Under the pieces are notes generated by a model. That model searched no databases. It saw only the letters and a list, made by a program, of their open reading frames with translations, and was not told the origin of the DNA. A program made the translations under genes and the position numbers. 64,000 bases of DNA from an uncultured Pseudomonadales bacterium (GTDB lineage: Bacteria > Pseudomonadota > Gammaproteobacteria > Pseudomonadales > Pseudohongiellaceae): contig CALSUH010000013.1 in assembly GCA_943789485.1 (NCBI GenBank), forward strand, positions 124,824 to 188,823, written 5' to 3'. Below are positions 23,729 to 39,391 of this stretch, in pieces (the first letter of the stretch is position 1; each line of letters begins with the position of its first letter).

Positions 23729-24601
23729 ATGCTGAACAGAAACCGATACCTGCTTGCCCTTACCCTAGTTCTCTCGCTCTCGCTAAGTACTAGCGCCCAG
23801 GAGATCTCAAGAGAATCTCTGGGCGGCCCTGGTCCTTATCAGGTTGCGTACTATTCAAGCTACCCGGCGGTACCGGAATTTAGCGCAGCAACTATCTATT
23901 TTCCTGCTAATAAAGGGGAAGACTTCGCCGGTGTCGCCATATCACCAGGATTCGTGGAATCGCAGGAGAATATGAGCTGGTGGGGAAATCACCTCGCCTC
24001 TCACGGCTACGCTGTGCTGACTCTTGACACCAATGAGCTGCGTGACGATCCGTCGCTGCGCGCGGACGCCCTGATGGCCGCTGTCGAAGTACTGCGTAAT
24101 GAAGGTGAACGTATGGGCGGAACGTTGCGGGGCAAGATCCTCAATGAGCGCATGGCGATTATGGGTCATTCCATGGGAGGTGGCGGCACTTTGATTGCAG
24201 CAAATGCACACAGCGCTGATCTGAAGGCAGCAATTCCTTTCACCCCTTGGCAACCGGACGGTGATTTTTCTACAATCTCAATTCCTACATTAGTCATTGC
24301 TGGCGAGAATGATCGCATCGCGCCTGTAGCCGACCATGCCCTGCCGCATTTCGAGAGCCTTTCCGACGACATTCCAAAAATGTATTTTGAAATCAAGGAA
24401 GGTAATCACTTCATTGCCAATACAGATACTGGCGATGACCGACTTGCACCCAATATCGATGTACACGACCTAGTCGGCGGTATGGCTGTAGCTTGGTTAA
24501 AATTGTTTGTCGATGGCGATGAAGAATATCGAGAGCTGGTGTTTGGAGAAATGTCAGCAGGCGACAGAGAGAGACTATCAAAGTGGGAATATTCTGAGTA
24601 A
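23729..24601 (+). CDS. Secreted cutinase/PET-hydrolase-like polyester hydrolase
   Basis: A 290-residue protein with signal peptide (LALTLVLSLSLSTSA|Q). The whole sequence aligns by eye with bacterial cutinases and PET hydrolases: GPGPYQVAYY, ATIYFPAN, ISPGFVESQENMSWWGNHLA, SHGYAVLTLDTN, IMGHSMGGGGTLIAAN, LKAAIPFTPW, VIAGENDRIAPV, EGNHFIAN, AWLKLFVDGDEEY. The triad is S148, D195, H227. F75 lies at the oxyanion Tyr/Phe position and W174 at the position of the aromatic subsite Trp. Unlike characterised members it contains no cysteine, so the usual C-terminal disulfide is missing, and an insertion (about 232-246) sits after the catalytic His. It probably hydrolyses a natural polyester or a large ester outside the cytoplasm. 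It is followed after 39 bp by a thioesterase. Confidence 0.85.
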   Translation: MLNRNRYLLALTLVLSLSLSTSAQEISRESLGGPGPYQVAYYSSYPAVPEFSAATIYFPANKGEDFAGVAISPGFVESQENMSWWGNHLASHGYAVLTLDTNELRDDPSLRADALMAAVEVLRNEGERMGGTLRGKILNERMAIMGHSMGGGGTLIAANAHSADLKAAIPFTPWQPDGDFSTISIPTLVIAGENDRIAPVADHALPHFESLSDDIPKMYFEIKEGNHFIANTDTGDDRLAPNIDVHDLVGGMAVAWLKLFVDGDEEYRELVFGEMSAGDRERLSKWEYSE

Positions 24602-24640
24602 GCGCACTAGTAATAGCCATAAAGAGAACGGCGGTAAATC

Positions 24641-25054
24641 ATGAGCATTGTAAGCAAAATGGAAATGGAAGCATTTTTTTCTAAGGAGTTTCCTCAAGCA
24701 AGTTTCGTCATTGAATCTTTTGACGAAGGCTCTGTGACTATTAGGCGCAAAGTTGACGAAGGGGATTTACGTCCCGGCGGAACTGTATCTGGCCCGACAA
24801 TGATGGGTCTCGCTGATTGTGCCATTTACGCTGCAATTCTTCGGGAAATTGGATTAGTTGCATTAGCAGTAACTACAAGTTTGAACATCAATTTTCTACG
24901 CAAGCCTGTTGCTGACAAAGACATACTAGGCGTTTGTAAATTACTGAAGCTTGGAAAAACACTGGCAATTGGGGAAGTAACGATTTATTCCGAAGGCGAT
25001 GATCGAGCCATTGCACATTCTGTAGGAACTTATTCGATTCCGCCGAATAAATAG
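24641..25054 (+). CDS. PaaI-type hotdog thioesterase
   Basis: A 137-residue hotdog-fold protein. GGTVSGPTMMGLADCAIYAA forms the central helix entry and active-site region, with the Gly-rich segment and Asp of the PaaI family. SLNINFLRKPVADKDILG is the matching strand. It hydrolyses acyl- or aryl-CoA thioesters in the cytoplasm. The short gap after the PET-hydrolase-like gene and the terminator directly downstream suggest a two-gene operon, so it may act on acids released by that enzyme once activated to CoA esters (inference). Confidence 0.85.
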   Translation: MSIVSKMEMEAFFSKEFPQASFVIESFDEGSVTIRRKVDEGDLRPGGTVSGPTMMGLADCAIYAAILREIGLVALAVTTSLNINFLRKPVADKDILGVCKLLKLGKTLAIGEVTIYSEGDDRAIAHSVGTYSIPPNK

Positions 25055-25113
25055 ATTCCTGGTTAGAAAACGGACTTACGCTAACCACGCACAAGCAAAA
25101 TCCAAACCAAAAA

Positions 25114-25140
25114 AAACCACGGCCTAAGCCGCGGTTTTTT
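25114..25140 (+). terminator. Rho-independent terminator after the thioesterase gene
   Basis: AAACCACGGC-CTAA-GCCGCGGTTT with one mismatch, flanked by A and T runs. The symmetry means it may also stop transcripts arriving from the right. Confidence 0.85.
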
Positions 25141-25193: not shown

Positions 25194-26177
25194 TCACTCA
25201 GTGACGGTCACAGTCATAAACGCATCGTGATAAAGCCCGCCGTCATCACCGCGACCCCACAAGATATACTCACCGGGTTCTTCGAAAGAGACCGTGGTGT
25301 TGATCATGCCATCTTCAGCAATATCAGGTGGTGACCATGACAGTCCCCATGCCGAGTTGGAACCTGGTCGAGTATCTTCCCAAGACTTTGGCTGAGGGGG
25401 ATCGAAAGTTACCTTGCCAGAACCACGGTAGACATTCCACGACAGAAACAAACCATTGATCTTACCTACTGTTGGCTGCCACGGAATTCGCATTGCCATT
25501 TGCCGTTGCACCATCTCTTCGGTAGTACTCTCCCCACCGCGAGCAGCAATCGCGCGTATGGTATCTACGCTTCTTCTTGCTCTTGGAACACCATCATCCA
25601 TAAGGTGTGTGGTGAAACTCAGCGGCTCGCCAACGCGAACGCTGCGCACATGCTCACCGTTAACCGTGTCACCTTGAAGAGTTACCACCGGTGCTATGTT
25701 CGCTCTAGACTCCGGGCTGGATGTGCCAGCACCTAAAGAGCCGGTCTCGGAGGCGATTACCATATTATCCACCAAATAGTCATCCTTGAGCGTCGCGTAA
25801 GCACGTCGTGTCACACCATTGACCGTTAACTCCCAAACCAATTCACGGTCGCCCCAGTCAGAGGGTACATTCACTTCAAAAGTAAAGCGGTTACGGCGCG
25901 GCAAAAAGTGAGTGGGTTGGCCCCGATCAGCGCCGCCTGGAGAGAAAAAATTATTCTCGCCAATATCAACATCAGGCTCTTCTTCCCAATTTTCGTTCAT
26001 GTATCCAAACATGAAGTTGAAGCTACCATCTTCAAGCGGACGCCAGCCTTCGTAGGCCACTTCAACATTTTTACCGAAGTTGTAGGACTCAGCTTGAGCT
26101 AATGTTGCGCTCATCAATACAATTAGAGCAAAGCCAAAAGTCATGGCCTTGCAAGCAAGGCTTTTTATTATATTCAT
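25194..26177 (-). CDS. Exported protein of unknown function, partner of the cytochrome/monooxygenase
   Basis: A 327-residue protein with signal peptide (ALIVLMSATLAQA|ES). It is beta-rich, with immunoglobulin-like features in two halves: EVAYEGWRPLEDGSFNFMFG, RNRFTFEVNVPSDWGDRELV in the first, and VRVGEPLSFTTHLMDDGVPR, TVSFEEPGEYILWGRGDD in the second. The last segment resembles the end of an Ig-like or cupredoxin-like sandwich. No catalytic motif is recognised. Its ATG overlaps the stop of the preceding gene (TAATG), showing translational coupling with the copper monooxygenase/cytochrome, so a joint function is likely. Confidence 0.65.
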   Translation of the reverse strand: MNIIKSLACKAMTFGFALIVLMSATLAQAESYNFGKNVEVAYEGWRPLEDGSFNFMFGYMNENWEEEPDVDIGENNFFSPGGADRGQPTHFLPRRNRFTFEVNVPSDWGDRELVWELTVNGVTRRAYATLKDDYLVDNMVIASETGSLGAGTSSPESRANIAPVVTLQGDTVNGEHVRSVRVGEPLSFTTHLMDDGVPRARRSVDTIRAIAARGGESTTEEMVQRQMAMRIPWQPTVGKINGLFLSWNVYRGSGKVTFDPPQPKSWEDTRPGSNSAWGLSWSPPDIAEDGMINTTVSFEEPGEYILWGRGDDGGLYHDAFMTVTVTE

Positions 26178-27625
26178 TATCGACTTGCCCCCTGCAGCGC
26201 CACATCGTTATTGACATTCTGACCCACCGAGGCATTGTCTATTGGTTGAACCAATGGCAATAGGCAAAGTGGGCAACCAATTACGTGATCGTTCGGCCCT
26301 AGATTCAGATTATTGCGCCGCTTTTCCATTTCATCAAAGAACTGGTCATCGGTCATAGTTACTCGGATACCTAGATCGATAAACATATTCGTTACAGAAC
26401 GGTTACCCGAACCCTGCCAGTTTCTGGAATCTGGCACATTAGGATTCGTGTCAGTATTGTTCATATAACCAACGATGTGTAGGATCGTGCCTTTAGGCAG
26501 AAGTGGTGCGGCATCATCATCGTAGGCGTAGCCACGAACCCAGTTGTGGTCGTAGCCAACACATGAAAGGGTTTCTACGCTGTAACCCCAGATCGCTTCA
26601 AGGCACATGCGCTCACCTGGAGCATGTAAATGGGGCTCAAACGTCGATATTTTAGTGTGCTCAGTCAGCGTAGTGTAGGCGTGCAACTCCTGGTCTTTCT
26701 CATCGCCTCTTATACTAATATCAACGCCGTTACCTTGGGCATTGAAGACAGCGTCTTTAAATTTTGGCTCATAACCAACAGGATGGAAGCGGAAGCCAAT
26801 TTCCAAATGCGCGGTAGTGTCTCTACCATTGGAATGCAGATGCACAGAATCGGACACTATATAGCTGCCCGCCGTCAAAAGTCGGCCGGCTTCGTCATCA
26901 AAAATATCGGCGTTTCGACCTACTTCGTGCACTGGCCATGCTAGGCCCCGTTCAGTCCGGTTTCCATTTGCGTCAAGAGCAGCTGTGGCCCATATCATGT
27001 GGTGGAATATGTAAGCGCCACCAACAGTATCACGACCTTTGTCCGCTTGATTGTTAACGTCATTGACTTCTACAACCTCAACGGATTTGACCCAGCGATC
27101 TTCCGGAATATCAATCAGCAAGGCGTCAATCTCGCCCCACCAATCCGCAGTGCCGGCCAGTTTGGTCACCTCGTTGCTCTTTAAAATAAGATCTGGCGTG
27201 CCAGCAGTCCATGTGAGGCTGTCGTCGAACACTAAGGGCGTTGGTGCATCTGCTTCATTGCCCTTAGGTGTGCCGGATCTTGCCCAAAGAGAGATTGCAG
27301 CTATTTCTTCATCGCTTAGAGAGACATCATTCTTAAAATCCTGAATACCCAAACCTTTTTCAACGTACCAAGGTGGCATGGCACCGGCACGGTCTCTGAG
27401 AGACGTCTTGTATTCAATCAGACCTGCGAAAGGGGCTACCTGATCGTAGCTTATTAGCGGCATGGGGCCCACACCACCATCGCGGTGGCAGCTCTGACAG
27501 CTGCGCTGCAAGATTGGTTCAATGTCTTCGTGAAAAGTGACATCAGTCGCTTGCCCAAATGAAATACTAGGGATGGCAAATGCCAGCAGCAGCCCTATCA
27601 GAACTACAGGGTTGATTTTTCGCAT
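26177..27625 (-). CDS. Exported c-type cytochrome fused to PHM-like copper monooxygenase domain
   Basis: A 482-residue protein with signal peptide (GLLLAFAIPSISFG|Q). Residues 28-118 form a cytochrome-c-like domain with heme motif CQSCH (C43, C46, H47) and possible axial Met55 or Met83. Residues 150-440 resemble Cu type II ascorbate-dependent monooxygenases: H208-H209 in FHHM, H262/H264 in VHLHSNG and H332/H334 in PHLHAPGERM correspond in order to the CuH and CuM ligands of PHM/DBM. These enzymes hydroxylate C-H bonds with O2; here the heme could replace ascorbate as electron donor (inference). The C-terminus adds Cys pairs (IGCPLCLLP) of unknown role. It is the first gene of an operon with an unknown exported partner. 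Confidence 0.75.
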   Translation of the reverse strand: MRKINPVVLIGLLLAFAIPSISFGQATDVTFHEDIEPILQRSCQSCHRDGGVGPMPLISYDQVAPFAGLIEYKTSLRDRAGAMPPWYVEKGLGIQDFKNDVSLSDEEIAAISLWARSGTPKGNEADAPTPLVFDDSLTWTAGTPDLILKSNEVTKLAGTADWWGEIDALLIDIPEDRWVKSVEVVEVNDVNNQADKGRDTVGGAYIFHHMIWATAALDANGNRTERGLAWPVHEVGRNADIFDDEAGRLLTAGSYIVSDSVHLHSNGRDTTAHLEIGFRFHPVGYEPKFKDAVFNAQGNGVDISIRGDEKDQELHAYTTLTEHTKISTFEPHLHAPGERMCLEAIWGYSVETLSCVGYDHNWVRGYAYDDDAAPLLPKGTILHIVGYMNNTDTNPNVPDSRNWQGSGNRSVTNMFIDLGIRVTMTDDQFFDEMEKRRNNLNLGPNDHVIGCPLCLLPLVQPIDNASVGQNVNNDVALQGASR

Positions 27626-28065: not shown

Positions 28066-29640
28066 TCACTCCCGAGGACTCAAAACCTTACCTGAAGCCA
28101 CCGCAAGCGCTGCGCCATTGAAAAAAGCCACCTCGCCATTCACTATCACCACGTCAAACCCTTCGGCGAGTTGCAGCGGATCGGAATAGCTTGCTCGCGC
28201 TTTGACCTGAGTGGGGTCGAATATAATTAAATCGGCGGCCTTGCCCACCTCAACACTACCTCGATCGGTAACGCCGAGTAACTCGGCCGCATAAGAAGTC
28301 ATCTTTCGCACCGCTTCCTCCAGGGGCAGTGCCGCGCGGTTTACTACATACTCCTCGATAATTTTCGCAAACGTGCCATGGCCTCTTGGGTGGAATCCTG
28401 TAGGACTGCCGTCGGAGGACACGGTAATATTTTCATCCATAAGTAATCTGGATTGCAGCTCATCATCCATGATGAAATAAGCGCCACTGCCGCCTTGCGG
28501 CCCAATCACGTCGATTAATACTTCCTCGAAGGGCAAGCCTAGCTCCTGCTCCAAGTCGGCTAGTGTTTTTCCCGTATAGGGATCGGTGGCGAGCAGCGTT
28601 GCCTCTGGCCCATTACGATTTGTTATGCGGTTAACGAGGTATTCTTCCAACTCTTCTCTTCGATCTGAAAGTGCTACAGCAAATTCCTCATCAGTTTTCG
28701 ACCATACCGGAAACAGCAAGGCTAGACCTGCATAACTAGCATTGTAGGGATAAACATCCGCGCTTAACTCGATGCCCGATTGTCGTGCCCTTTCAATCAC
28801 CTCTAAAATTTCTTCGGCGCGTGCTCTGCCCTTGCCATAGACTGACTTAAGATGAGAGATGTGTACTCTTGCATGCAGACCTTGGCTTAACAGTTCATCA
28901 ATAGACTTTTCTAACTGATCATCGTCTTCATTGCGCATATGACTCATGATAACGCGGTCGCGACTGCCTACCACCTTCGCCATTTCAACCAGTTCAGATT
29001 CTGAAGCATGCAGGCCAGGGTTATATTCAAGCCCGGTACTCAATCCGAAAGCATAGTCCAATGAATTATTCAGCAGCTCCAACATGCGCTGAATCTGATC
29101 GGGTCCCGGGGCTGGGTTTTGACCTATACCTGCCTGATCACGCAGCGTTCCATGCCCGACGAACATGGCCAGATTCACCCCTATACCGTTCTCACTTACC
29201 TCTTCGACCCAAGCGCCCAGATCGTCTACATTGGGACTGTCACCGTCCTGACCGAGTGTAATAGTGGTTACGCCTTGGGCGAGGAAGTTTTCAAAAGCGG
29301 GTGTCTCTAAGGGATCGCCATGAGAGTGGACATCAATAAACCCCGGCGCGATAATTTTGCCTGTGGCGTCTATGATGTTAGTTACCGCCGCGTCCAATTC
29401 CCCCGGCGCGGTAATTGCGGCAATAACACCCTCTTTGAGATAAACGTCAGCCGCCCTGCCCGGACCACCGAAGCCATCAACGAGTTGTCCATTGCTTATT
29501 ACGCTGTCGAATTGAATCGGCTCATTGCTTGGCGAATCACTGCAAGCATTCAAGCCCATTGTGATTAAGAGCCAGAGACCCAATTTGTTTAATCTCTTTG
29601 GCAAGACTACCCCTCTAGCCCGCTTTTTCAATGTATTCAT
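28066..29640 (-). CDS. N-acyl-D-amino-acid deacylase family lipoprotein
   Basis: A 524-residue amidohydrolase with a lipoprotein signal (LWLLITMGLNAC|S). The D-aminoacylase pattern is present: GKIIAPGFIDVHSHGD near residue 100, TTITLGQDGDSP, FVGHGTLR, MSHMRNEDD, RVHISHLKSVYGKG and SDGSPTGFHPRGHGTFAK with the catalytic Asp. Loops in the middle (VLIDVIGPQGGSGAYFI) and the closing GSVEVGKAADLIIFDP fit the family. It removes acyl groups from D-amino acids, or acts on related amides, with one or two Zn ions. It is placed on the outer face of a membrane. Last gene of a three-gene hydrolase operon (45 bp after the amidase). Confidence 0.88.
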   Translation of the reverse strand: MNTLKKRARGVVLPKRLNKLGLWLLITMGLNACSDSPSNEPIQFDSVISNGQLVDGFGGPGRAADVYLKEGVIAAITAPGELDAAVTNIIDATGKIIAPGFIDVHSHGDPLETPAFENFLAQGVTTITLGQDGDSPNVDDLGAWVEEVSENGIGVNLAMFVGHGTLRDQAGIGQNPAPGPDQIQRMLELLNNSLDYAFGLSTGLEYNPGLHASESELVEMAKVVGSRDRVIMSHMRNEDDDQLEKSIDELLSQGLHARVHISHLKSVYGKGRARAEEILEVIERARQSGIELSADVYPYNASYAGLALLFPVWSKTDEEFAVALSDRREELEEYLVNRITNRNGPEATLLATDPYTGKTLADLEQELGLPFEEVLIDVIGPQGGSGAYFIMDDELQSRLLMDENITVSSDGSPTGFHPRGHGTFAKIIEEYVVNRAALPLEEAVRKMTSYAAELLGVTDRGSVEVGKAADLIIFDPTQVKARASYSDPLQLAEGFDVVIVNGEVAFFNGAALAVASGKVLSPRE

Positions 29641-36985: not shown

Positions 36986-39391
36986 CTAGTAGAGCTTGTT
37001 TATCGGCGAGGGACCAAACGACTTCCAGGTACCCTGATGTCTCGAACCACTGCCCTCGCCTCTCGACCAATCACAGACCCCACCCGGAAATACGTTCAAT
37101 AACTGCTGGTATTCTTCAGTCGTAAAGGAAATAGCATAGTCGGCCAGATCGATACGCTTTAACTGACAGCTCACAATATCGTTCGCCAGCGGCGCACCCG
37201 CAACCTGCCTTGGTGTTTGATAGCTAGGGTACAGCTCACCGCAGCGCGATTCTGAATTGAACGCCAAGGGTTCTTCGACCAGTTCGGTAATCTCGCCCGT
37301 AGTATCCCAGCAGCTATCAGTCAGACTTGCAGGCTTATTGCGAACGACTCGAAATGCCGGATCGAACTCTAGAGTATCGGCTTGAATATTTCGAATCCAA
37401 TAGTCCATCTGACGAAATAGATTCCCCAGATCATCCTGCCCCTCGATAAAGTCCCACTGACCACCTACCTGCATCACGTGGTTGTCTGCATGGCCGTTCG
37501 CGTTAAGCAATCGCTGCCGCGTCGAGAACTGGTGCACGATCATGTGGATGTCGCCCCCCTCTCGATGATCGTTGTAGGTTCGGTAATCGATAACCGGTGT
37601 TACCGCTAATCCCGCCCCACCAAACAGGATTCTTCCTGACTCTATAGCACGTTTATTAGCTTGAGAATCCGCTTTATGCCGCTCTGGCACATGATTCATA
37701 TCACGATCAAAGCCACCGATGCCCTGATTTAAATCTAAAAACTGCTGCGCTGTGATGACGCTTTTATTCAATGCTAGCAGGCCATACTGCACGCCGACGT
37801 TGTCGAGTGGCCGCTGTGCTAGCTGCTGCGTCGTAGCAACAGGATTCGCGATGGTTCCATAGACATTTACCGTATGGTCATAGACAGTTGCACGGATTCC
37901 ACCAGGGTTTGCGCCTGAATACAGCTCATCCGTTAGTGCCGGAATGCTGATCTCACCGCCCTGCTCTTCCAATGGAGTTTCGATAGTATAAAGTGGGTCT
38001 AAACGCGCCGCGCCGCGACTCAGATTCGCGAGTGACTCCCAAACACCAAAGCCTGACACCGCGCGTTGTTGCTCCTGGGTAAATGTCTCCACATCCATCG
38101 TACTAAAATAGTTATGCAGTAAACGCGCGTCGGCGAGTGTAAAGATGGTGGCAGTGGTTACATCGGGAAAGCTAGAAGAGACGATTATGCCATCGAACAC
38201 GCCGGGGTAGTTGTCGGCGGTTTGATGCGATTGATAGGAGCCGCCCGAGGCACCGGTTGCAATCGTGTAGTCCGGCTCACCGTAATGTTCGATAAAACGT
38301 TCCTTCACCATGATATGAGTCTCGGAGGCTAGCAAATCATTGCAGTTCTGGCCGAACACATTCAACGTCGCCGAGGTCAGCGCATAACCCTGCTCAAAGA
38401 GGCCACGGCGCATTACACCGCCGGTCCTATCTCCTTGCTGATACCAACCGGCGCGACAACCGCCACCATGGGTATACACCAACTTGTCATTCCAATAAGG
38501 ACTGCGGTTCCATGGGTCTAGTGAACGCGAGCCATTTAGCGGATTATGCAGCATGGCTATTTCGTAAACTGCCCGATTCACCGTACCCGTTTCGACTCGC
38601 ACGATATAAGGCTGATCGATCTGATCTATGACGGTAATTAGCCCCATGTCCTCAGGCAGTTCGGTTTCAGCCGCTAGGAGCAAGGGTTTGAACACCTCAT
38701 CCACAATTGACCAATAAACATAGTCAATACGAGTCGGAATCGTACAGTTTGCATCTAGCGAACTGCCTAGCGTATCACCTGCTATTGTCACGAATTGTTC
38801 GGTCTGACAAACGTAGGGCTGCTCGTGAGGCCCCGAGATAATAGGTCCGACCGAGGGATAGTTAGTTAGCGTAAGCGACTCGCTCAACTGCTGAGGGCTA
38901 TGCTCAACTAACAAAGCGCTGTCCCCGAGGGGCAAGTCAGTCAGTAGGGCTTGTAACGTTGTTGCTGCGGTCTGCGTGAAACGGTCACTAATATCACTGC
39001 CATTGAGGCTTATAGTTAGCTGTGTTCGGTTGAAGGATGGAGCAAATGCGACCTCCACTAACACATCGCCTCCAGTGACTAACCAGGATTGGGTAGATAC
39101 AGCACGCAGCTGAATTCCACTCTTGTTGCTCTGTGTAGAACCTCCCGAGTCACTACTACCTGAAGTGGCGATAGGTTCTTCCGTTGAACAAGACAGCAAT
39201 ACACCGCTTAGAACCAAACACAGCAGCGTCCTAAGGCGCGTAGTAATTGAGCACAATTGCTTAGCAGGCACAGACACAGACACAGACACAAGACGGACCG
39301 GGAGATTGGCTAGAAGAGTAGAGAGAGACATCAGCGCGTTCCAAAAAAGTATTGCTTTATTCTGGCGAGCATTGCGGTCAATGTAAAGCAA
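36986..39391 (-). CDS. DUF6351 lipoprotein with alpha/beta-hydrolase-like nucleophile elbow
   Basis: A large (up to 801 residues) exported protein. The lipoprotein signal RTLLCLVLSGVLLSC has the lipid Cys at residue 68. Upstream the frame runs through a hexanucleotide repeat, so the real start may be ATG at 39331 or one of the GTG/TTG codons nearer the signal. The body matches DUF6351: an N-terminal beta domain (about 90-180), LVYTHGGGCRAGWYQQGDR, and YTIATGASGGSYQSHQTADN, a Gly-x-Ser-x-Gly elbow, with DYRTYNDHREGGDIHM later. The pattern resembles 3-hydroxybutyrate-oligomer hydrolases and tannase-like esterases, so an exported esterase is likely but unproven. Single gene. Confidence 0.75.
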   Translation of the reverse strand: MLYIDRNARQNKAILFWNALMSLSTLLANLPVRLVSVSVSVPAKQLCSITTRLRTLLCLVLSGVLLSCSTEEPIATSGSSDSGGSTQSNKSGIQLRAVSTQSWLVTGGDVLVEVAFAPSFNRTQLTISLNGSDISDRFTQTAATTLQALLTDLPLGDSALLVEHSPQQLSESLTLTNYPSVGPIISGPHEQPYVCQTEQFVTIAGDTLGSSLDANCTIPTRIDYVYWSIVDEVFKPLLLAAETELPEDMGLITVIDQIDQPYIVRVETGTVNRAVYEIAMLHNPLNGSRSLDPWNRSPYWNDKLVYTHGGGCRAGWYQQGDRTGGVMRRGLFEQGYALTSATLNVFGQNCNDLLASETHIMVKERFIEHYGEPDYTIATGASGGSYQSHQTADNYPGVFDGIIVSSSFPDVTTATIFTLADARLLHNYFSTMDVETFTQEQQRAVSGFGVWESLANLSRGAARLDPLYTIETPLEEQGGEISIPALTDELYSGANPGGIRATVYDHTVNVYGTIANPVATTQQLAQRPLDNVGVQYGLLALNKSVITAQQFLDLNQGIGGFDRDMNHVPERHKADSQANKRAIESGRILFGGAGLAVTPVIDYRTYNDHREGGDIHMIVHQFSTRQRLLNANGHADNHVMQVGGQWDFIEGQDDLGNLFRQMDYWIRNIQADTLEFDPAFRVVRNKPASLTDSCWDTTGEITELVEEPLAFNSESRCGELYPSYQTPRQVAGAPLANDIVSCQLKRIDLADYAISFTTEEYQQLLNVFPGGVCDWSRGEGSGSRHQGTWKSFGPSPINKLY
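39269..39290. repeat. Short hexanucleotide tandem repeat (CACAGA)
   Basis: About 3.7 copies of CACAGA inside the N-terminal coding region of the DUF6351 gene, encoding Val-Ser repeats on the minus strand. Changes of whole units would keep the frame. It lies before the lipoprotein signal and may belong to the untranslated leader if a later start is used. Confidence 0.6.

Follow-up and report, generated by a model that had tools for sequence, protein, structure and literature searches.

Type I PETases are expected to have a single conserved disulfide and to lack an extended loop, and type II enzymes, among them IsPETase (type IIb), two disulfides, a GWSMG elbow and a loop of type II length. Type III PETases such as HaloPETase1, PmC and R75estA carry GHSQG, tyrosine instead of the clamp tryptophan and two disulfides of their own (PMC12442448, PMC13396203). 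The archaeal enzyme GuaPA, reported to cluster not with cutinases but with alpha/beta hydrolases that include the dienelactone hydrolases, hydrolyses films of poly(ethylene terephthalate) (PET) without a disulfide; its surface is acidic and it carries an extended loop of 12 residues (PMC12599313); no disulfide was identified in the Bacteroidetes candidates PET57-59 (PMC8767016). For finding such enzymes, Danso et al. (2018) list seven PET hydrolase search criteria (PMC5881046), and Alam et al. (2025) require the motif DxDxR(Y)xxFxC, common to all of their PET-active variants, for their M5 class; 11 ocean genes were produced in the latter study and no M1-M4 enzyme was active in its PET assay (PMC12224614). 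Here we describe a PETase-family gene in a 64 000-nucleotide stretch of DNA, hereafter the window, from an uncultured Pseudomonadales bacterium of the Pseudohongiellaceae (contig CALSUH010000013.1, positions 124 824 to 188 823). We consider it likely that its product is a serine ester hydrolase of the PETase/bacterial-cutinase family that is secreted to the periplasm or the cell exterior, belongs to a cysteine-free gammaproteobacterial lineage and works by the mechanism of its homologues. The family is ordinary and the build unusual: the protein is a real disulfide-free, long-loop variant within the known PETases.

The window protein matches the Pfam family PF12740 (PETase) with an E-value of 3.4e-67 and 227.1 bits against a cut-off of 28, and the alignment spans residues 34-280, or positions 22-252 of the 263 in the profile, which places it in the family. 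Its top PDB matches are PET hydrolases (E-value about 5e-54), and of 180 PDB matches the best 60 carry the name PET hydrolase or cutinase, save for a few BTA-hydrolases, acetylxylan esterases and dienelactone hydrolase domain-containing proteins. When a profile of seven sequences was used, IsPETase-type chains scored best (E-value 7.5e-70). The NCBIfam model of the BHET hydrolase BdeA (NF051441) gave 188.8 bits, below its equivalog cut-off of 520 bits. A preliminary description of this locus had proposed a divergent cutinase/PETase-family enzyme, with a dienelactone hydrolase as the identity that would contradict it; the latter was rejected as a secondary Pfam match only (E-value 2.7e-5), and the proposal is upheld by the PF12740 match along most of the profile, the triad and the F75/W174 clamp. 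On re-reading the open reading frame, its coordinates, frame, triad candidates (S148, D195 and H227) and motifs were all as described, with GHSMGGGG at residues 146-153, FTPW at 171-174, ENDRIAP at 193-199 and EGNHF at 224-228. By inspection, approximately residues 1-23 resemble a signal peptide (a basic start, a hydrophobic stretch and TSA/Q), suggesting secretion of a mature chain of 267 amino acids with a calculated isoelectric point of 4.54. Promoter-like patterns were not in excess in a pattern scan (2 versus 2.0 in shuffles).

An AlphaFold2 model built from 71 sequences superposes on IsPETase, the comparison that the preliminary description had proposed, a match at the level of the predicted fold; an earlier model from seven sequences was discarded (predicted local distance difference test score, pLDDT, 31.5). 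The triad columns (Table 1) are without variation across 71 aligned sequences, the window protein counted, in an alignment that omits five of the 75 extracted relatives (L017, L034, L035, L087 and L095). The clamp and oxyanion residues F75, M149 and W174 are retained, and H147 and F228, which replace W159 and S238 of IsPETase, are type I-like. E77 stands in place of A89 and is glutamate in all 30 lineage sequences (28 of 29 in a second, differing set); R105 takes the position of L117 and is arginine in 24 of 29. By homology, a substrate would dock in the open cleft between F75 and W174, where S148, activated by H227 and D195, would attack the ester while the backbone amides of F75 and M149 hold the oxyanion. 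The long loop at residues 232-250 would line subsite II and help to hold the catalytic histidine without an active-site disulfide.

None of the three described types accommodates this protein. With Thermobifida Cutinase 1 and BTA-hydrolase 1 (5lui/5zoa) it has in common the GHSMG elbow, histidine and phenylalanine in subsite II and the tryptophan clamp, but in contrast to type I cutinases it has no C-terminal disulfide, a loop of 24 residues instead of 12, and E77 where they have glycine. Type II does not fit the lack of cysteine, the GHSMG elbow and the nine extra loop residues; IsPETase, with its two disulfides, is also basic (calculated isoelectric point 9.41) whereas the window protein is acidic, and both IsPETase and the Burkholderiales cutinase 7cwq differ from it in loop length (15 versus 24) and in the DxDxRYxxFxC motif, which it lacks. 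Type III enzymes resemble it in the histidine before the nucleophile and in their gammaproteobacterial origin, yet this type was rejected because the protein has GHSMG and W174; nor does it have any disulfide. Compared by description only, GuaPA is similar in being acidic, disulfide-free and long-looped (PMC12599313), and PET57-59 in the reported lack of a disulfide (PMC8767016).

A scan of species genomes identified 29 relatives (L026-L054) with 50-96% identity; eight short, weak matches from the same scan (L055-L062) were left unused. The record titles are those of metagenome-assembled Gammaproteobacteria, Proteobacteria and Pseudomonadales bacteria, with one each from Pseudohongiella sp., the SAR86 cluster, Halieaceae, Lysobacterales and Longimicrobiales, and isolate names suggest a marine or lake water origin for several. 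The preliminary description had noted that cysteines, and with them both disulfides of IsPETase, are absent, and indeed there are none among the 290 residues. The same is true of the mature chain in all 30 sequences (L044, L045 and L046 being fragments and L034 containing unknown residues), where the few cysteines occur at residue 25 or before, in the signal peptide or lipobox; two further members, L088 and L089, have one each at residues 11 and 25. At the columns of the IsPETase active-site disulfide, the long-loop clade has G192 (22/22) and isoleucine or valine at 229 (22/22).

From H227 to the next conserved glycine there are 24 residues in the window protein, compared with 15 in IsPETase and 12 in the Thermobifida type I cutinase, an excess of nine and 12 residues respectively. 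This long loop is carried by 23 of the 30 lineage sequences (with a spacing of 25 in L042 and L043) and is absent in six (L047-L052), L044 being cut before it. Five of the six loop-less relatives have a lipobox-like cysteine by inspection; because they mostly look like lipoproteins, the gain or loss of the loop may have gone along with a change in anchoring. An acidic insertion after the catalytic histidine, as first described, does occur in the window protein; its acidic stretch varies among relatives, however, and the conserved part is the PNIDVHDLVG that follows. In the 15 of 21 long-loop rows that remain after a 90% identity filter, PNIDVHDLVG has a mean entropy of 0.32 bits versus 0.78 for the mature chain, a level reached by 4.3% of 10-residue stretches (itself included); it is conserved about as strongly as the active-site elements. 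P241, N242, D244, L248 and G250 are invariant in these 15 members; in the full set of 23, L029, which the filter dropped, has valine at D244. The region is confidently modelled (block mean pLDDT 90 and 95). Position and conservation together suggest that the loop may stand in for the active-site disulfide. We regard as unlikely the wider proposal that the lineage forms a structural type of its own among PETase-like polyester hydrolases, with a conserved loop of 9-12 residues, PNxDxx[DE]LxG, replacing both disulfides, holding the histidine and shaping subsite II. In the open-licence literature searched we found no description of the lineage or its loop, which does not establish novelty.

In a tree of 75 rows, from which five of the 75 extracted relatives were omitted (L044, L045, L046, L087 and L095), the long-loop clade (22 rows) is firm as a group with support of 99/99. 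It joins the loop-less relatives and paralogues from the genus of the window in a group of 46 rows (90/87), and a canonical group of 23 rows (89/75) with IsPETase, 7cwq, Cut1, 8eu1 and Pseudomonadales sequences that have the type II cysteines lies apart. Placement in a tree of PET hydrolase types, which the preliminary description had suggested as a check, is firm for the clade and not for its deep position: two alternatives nearer the canonical enzymes, 18-20 log units worse, survive the approximately unbiased test (p 0.055 and 0.063), and a clean separation of the disulfide-free group from types I and II is not established. This moderately supported deep place counts against our interpretation, as does the fact that the role of the loop is inferred from place and conservation. 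A third such point is that glycine replaces the clamp tryptophan in three of the 30 sequences, the long-loop sub-branch L042, L043 and L045, which may reflect substrate variation within the lineage; L042 and L043 are also without the full GxSMGGGG.

Within the genus of the window, seven of 25 genomes (G000-G024) have an orthologue with at least 55% identity and 16 a more distant paralogue; among 369 genomes of the class, two besides its own matched. In 17 of 17 sequences, the second PETase-family paralogue of the genus has tyrosine at the clamp tryptophan column and then two neighbouring cysteines, which might be linked as a vicinal disulfide at the substrate cleft.

Measured against the criteria of Danso et al., with their hidden Markov model numbering mapped to window residues in this analysis, the protein has GHSMGGGG (GxSMGGGG), F75 (F/Y62), W174 (W/Y157), I197 (I/V180) and F228 (the optional F/W211), and with no cysteine it does not have the C-terminal pair C255/C262 (PMC5881046). 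In place of DxDxR(Y)xxFxC, which is both the seventh of these criteria, there written DxDxR(Y)xxF(L)C, and the M5 motif, it has DGDEEYRELVFG; of the sequences scanned, the strict pattern occurs in none of 27 from the lineage, in all five of type IIa-like kind and in both references. By its components the protein would be assigned to the M4 class of Alam et al. Like the ocean pseudo-PETases (M4; clades II/V), it lacks the C-terminal motif but has the triad and PG[YF], and clade V contains Gemmatimonadota and Gammaproteobacteria, with Gemmatimonadota M5 enzymes that share its glutamate and histidine at the A89/W159 positions; the accessible text makes no mention of a long conserved loop (PMC12224614).

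We judge it quite unlikely that the protein is a true PET or aromatic polyester hydrolase, representing an additional type with the long loop in place of the disulfides, although the triad, the methionine oxyanion residue, the F/W clamp, the GGGG elbow and the predicted fold match to IsPETase would all suit one. The missing disulfides, acidity and long loop are themselves compatible with PET activity, since GuaPA has all three (PMC12599313). PET activity is nevertheless doubtful because DxDxRYxxFxC is lacking, E77 and H147, conserved in the lineage, replace A89 and W159 (residues named unfavourable at these positions by Alam et al., PMC12224614), and no PF00848 dioxygenase was matched in its own genome, which is 84% complete (4 of 14 control genomes matched, and some terephthalate dioxygenases may escape this model). 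The inactivity on PET of the M1-M4 enzymes tested, which may or may not have included one of this lineage, points the same way (PMC12224614). Three proteins of the tannase family PF07519, the family of MHETase, are found in the genome and would favour PET use, with the reservation that 0 of 14 control genomes matched and there is thus no positive control; none of the three passed an NCBIfam model, and L083, the only one compared with the PDB, is closer to feruloyl esterases (E-value 5.3e-74) than to MHETase (2.1e-57). The same genome has two PF00775 intradiol-dioxygenase-type genes side by side, and it is plausible that the bacterium feeds on natural aromatic esters.

Alternatively, the protein may be a secreted esterase that acts on esters of small or medium size (lipid, acetyl, feruloyl-type or lactone) and is not a polyesterase, a possibility that we rank well below the preferred one. 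It would agree with the charged cleft positions E77 (30/30) and R105 (24/29), with the long loop by the active site, and with the absence by Pfam name of PET or terephthalate genes from the scan of 26 further window proteins, though the gene at 36986-39391 (- strand), some 12 kb away, matches PF19878, a 'tannase-like family of unknown function' (E-value 7e-213). The PETase-type clamp residues are kept, however, and no lid domain was seen on inspection of the secondary-structure string of the model. PETase-family enzymes often accept small esters and aliphatic polyesters alike, so the two readings overlap. The PETase-family ester hydrolase that we favour probably acts in nature on an ester or an aliphatic polyester other than PET.

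Table 1. Positions of the features discussed, in window coordinates unless a locus is given
Feature	Position	Strand	Basis or remark
PETase-family (PF12740) serine hydrolase gene	23729..24601	+	290 aa, 0 Cys; profile, PDB and model matches
F75 (= IsPETase Y87, clamp/oxyanion), V76, E77 (= IsPETase A89)	23951..23959	+	alignment
Catalytic Ser148 in GHSMGGGG	24170..24172	+	= IsPETase S160 by alignment; invariant in 71 sequences
W174 (= IsPETase W185, aromatic clamp)	24248..24250	+	alignment
Catalytic Asp195	24311..24313	+	= IsPETase D206 by alignment; invariant in 71 sequences
Catalytic His227	24407..24409	+	= IsPETase H237 by alignment; invariant in 71 sequences
Long loop after catalytic His, residues 232-250	24422..24478	+	alignment, conservation, model
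Conserved loop part PNIDVHDLVG, residues 241-250	24449..24478	+	conservation test
Hotdog-fold thioesterase (4HBT)	24641..25054	+	profile matches; no signal peptide by inspection
Probable bidirectional intrinsic terminator	25111..25140 (about)	.	between 24641-25054 (+) and 25194-26177 (-)
Second paralogue of the genus, example	L002:1477-2337	-	also L010-L019, L021-L025, L105

Downstream of the PETase-like gene, on the same strand and 39 nt from its stop codon, lies an open reading frame for a thioesterase. The preliminary description called it PaaI, placed it in an operon with the PETase-like gene before a shared terminator, and proposed uptake and coenzyme A-linked use of the released acids. 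The label is too specific, as the equivalog TIGR02286 gave 22.4 bits against 118.9, although the generic hotdog model TIGR00369 was passed (40.4 versus 36.6). Located 3' of the thioesterase is a hairpin with a run of U after it (-15.7 kcal/mol as + strand RNA, z -3.9), and since it also faces the convergent gene at 25194-26177 it is probably bidirectional; the call rests on the fold and near-symmetry because the pattern scan gave it on the - strand only and found two terminator-like sites where 1.7 were expected by chance.

An operon for the use of released acids through coenzyme A would be consistent with the 39-nt gap, the shared strand, the single downstream hairpin in the window, and the tight spacing in five relatives (L026, L027, L029, L030 and L035; tblastn matches 42-43 nt apart, counting the stop codon). 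Tight pairing is thus limited to six of 30 loci, the window and its closest kin. Three further relatives have the thioesterase 270, 975 and 1470 nt away, making eight of 29 with it in the locus, and it was not found in the locus of the other 21, although in three cases (L042, L043 and L044) the locus breaks off within the PETase-like gene or at most 350 nt downstream of it. Around its PETase-like gene, L033 has retained homologues of 25194-27625 and 28066-29640 but shows no thioesterase. The search for the thioesterase took in 24 genomes, 16 of them from the genus (G000-G015), with orthologue status taken from the genus scan: the thioesterase occurs in three of five genus genomes with a PETase-like orthologue and in eight of 11 without, on a different contig from that gene in G002, absences being soft at 65-99% completeness. 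With tight pairing so restricted and no association between the two genes in the genus, we consider the operon very improbable and take the pairing to be recent and incidental, the thioesterase being probably a neighbour and not a functional partner.

Beyond the hairpin, the region 25194-27625 (- strand) holds two genes for proteins of 327 and 482 amino acids with no Pfam family over the cut-off, which are also paired in several close relatives; the 482-residue protein contains CxxCH, a heme-type motif, and has a cytochrome match below threshold.

Because two PETase-mining rules demand a C-terminal cysteine motif (PMC5881046, PMC12224614), this lineage would be discarded or labelled pseudo-PETase. 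It could show whether such rules track polyester activity or ancestry alone, and its conserved loop is a concrete candidate for an alternative to the active-site disulfide. If the loop does replace both disulfides, polyester hydrolysis in this lineage would need no disulfide at all.
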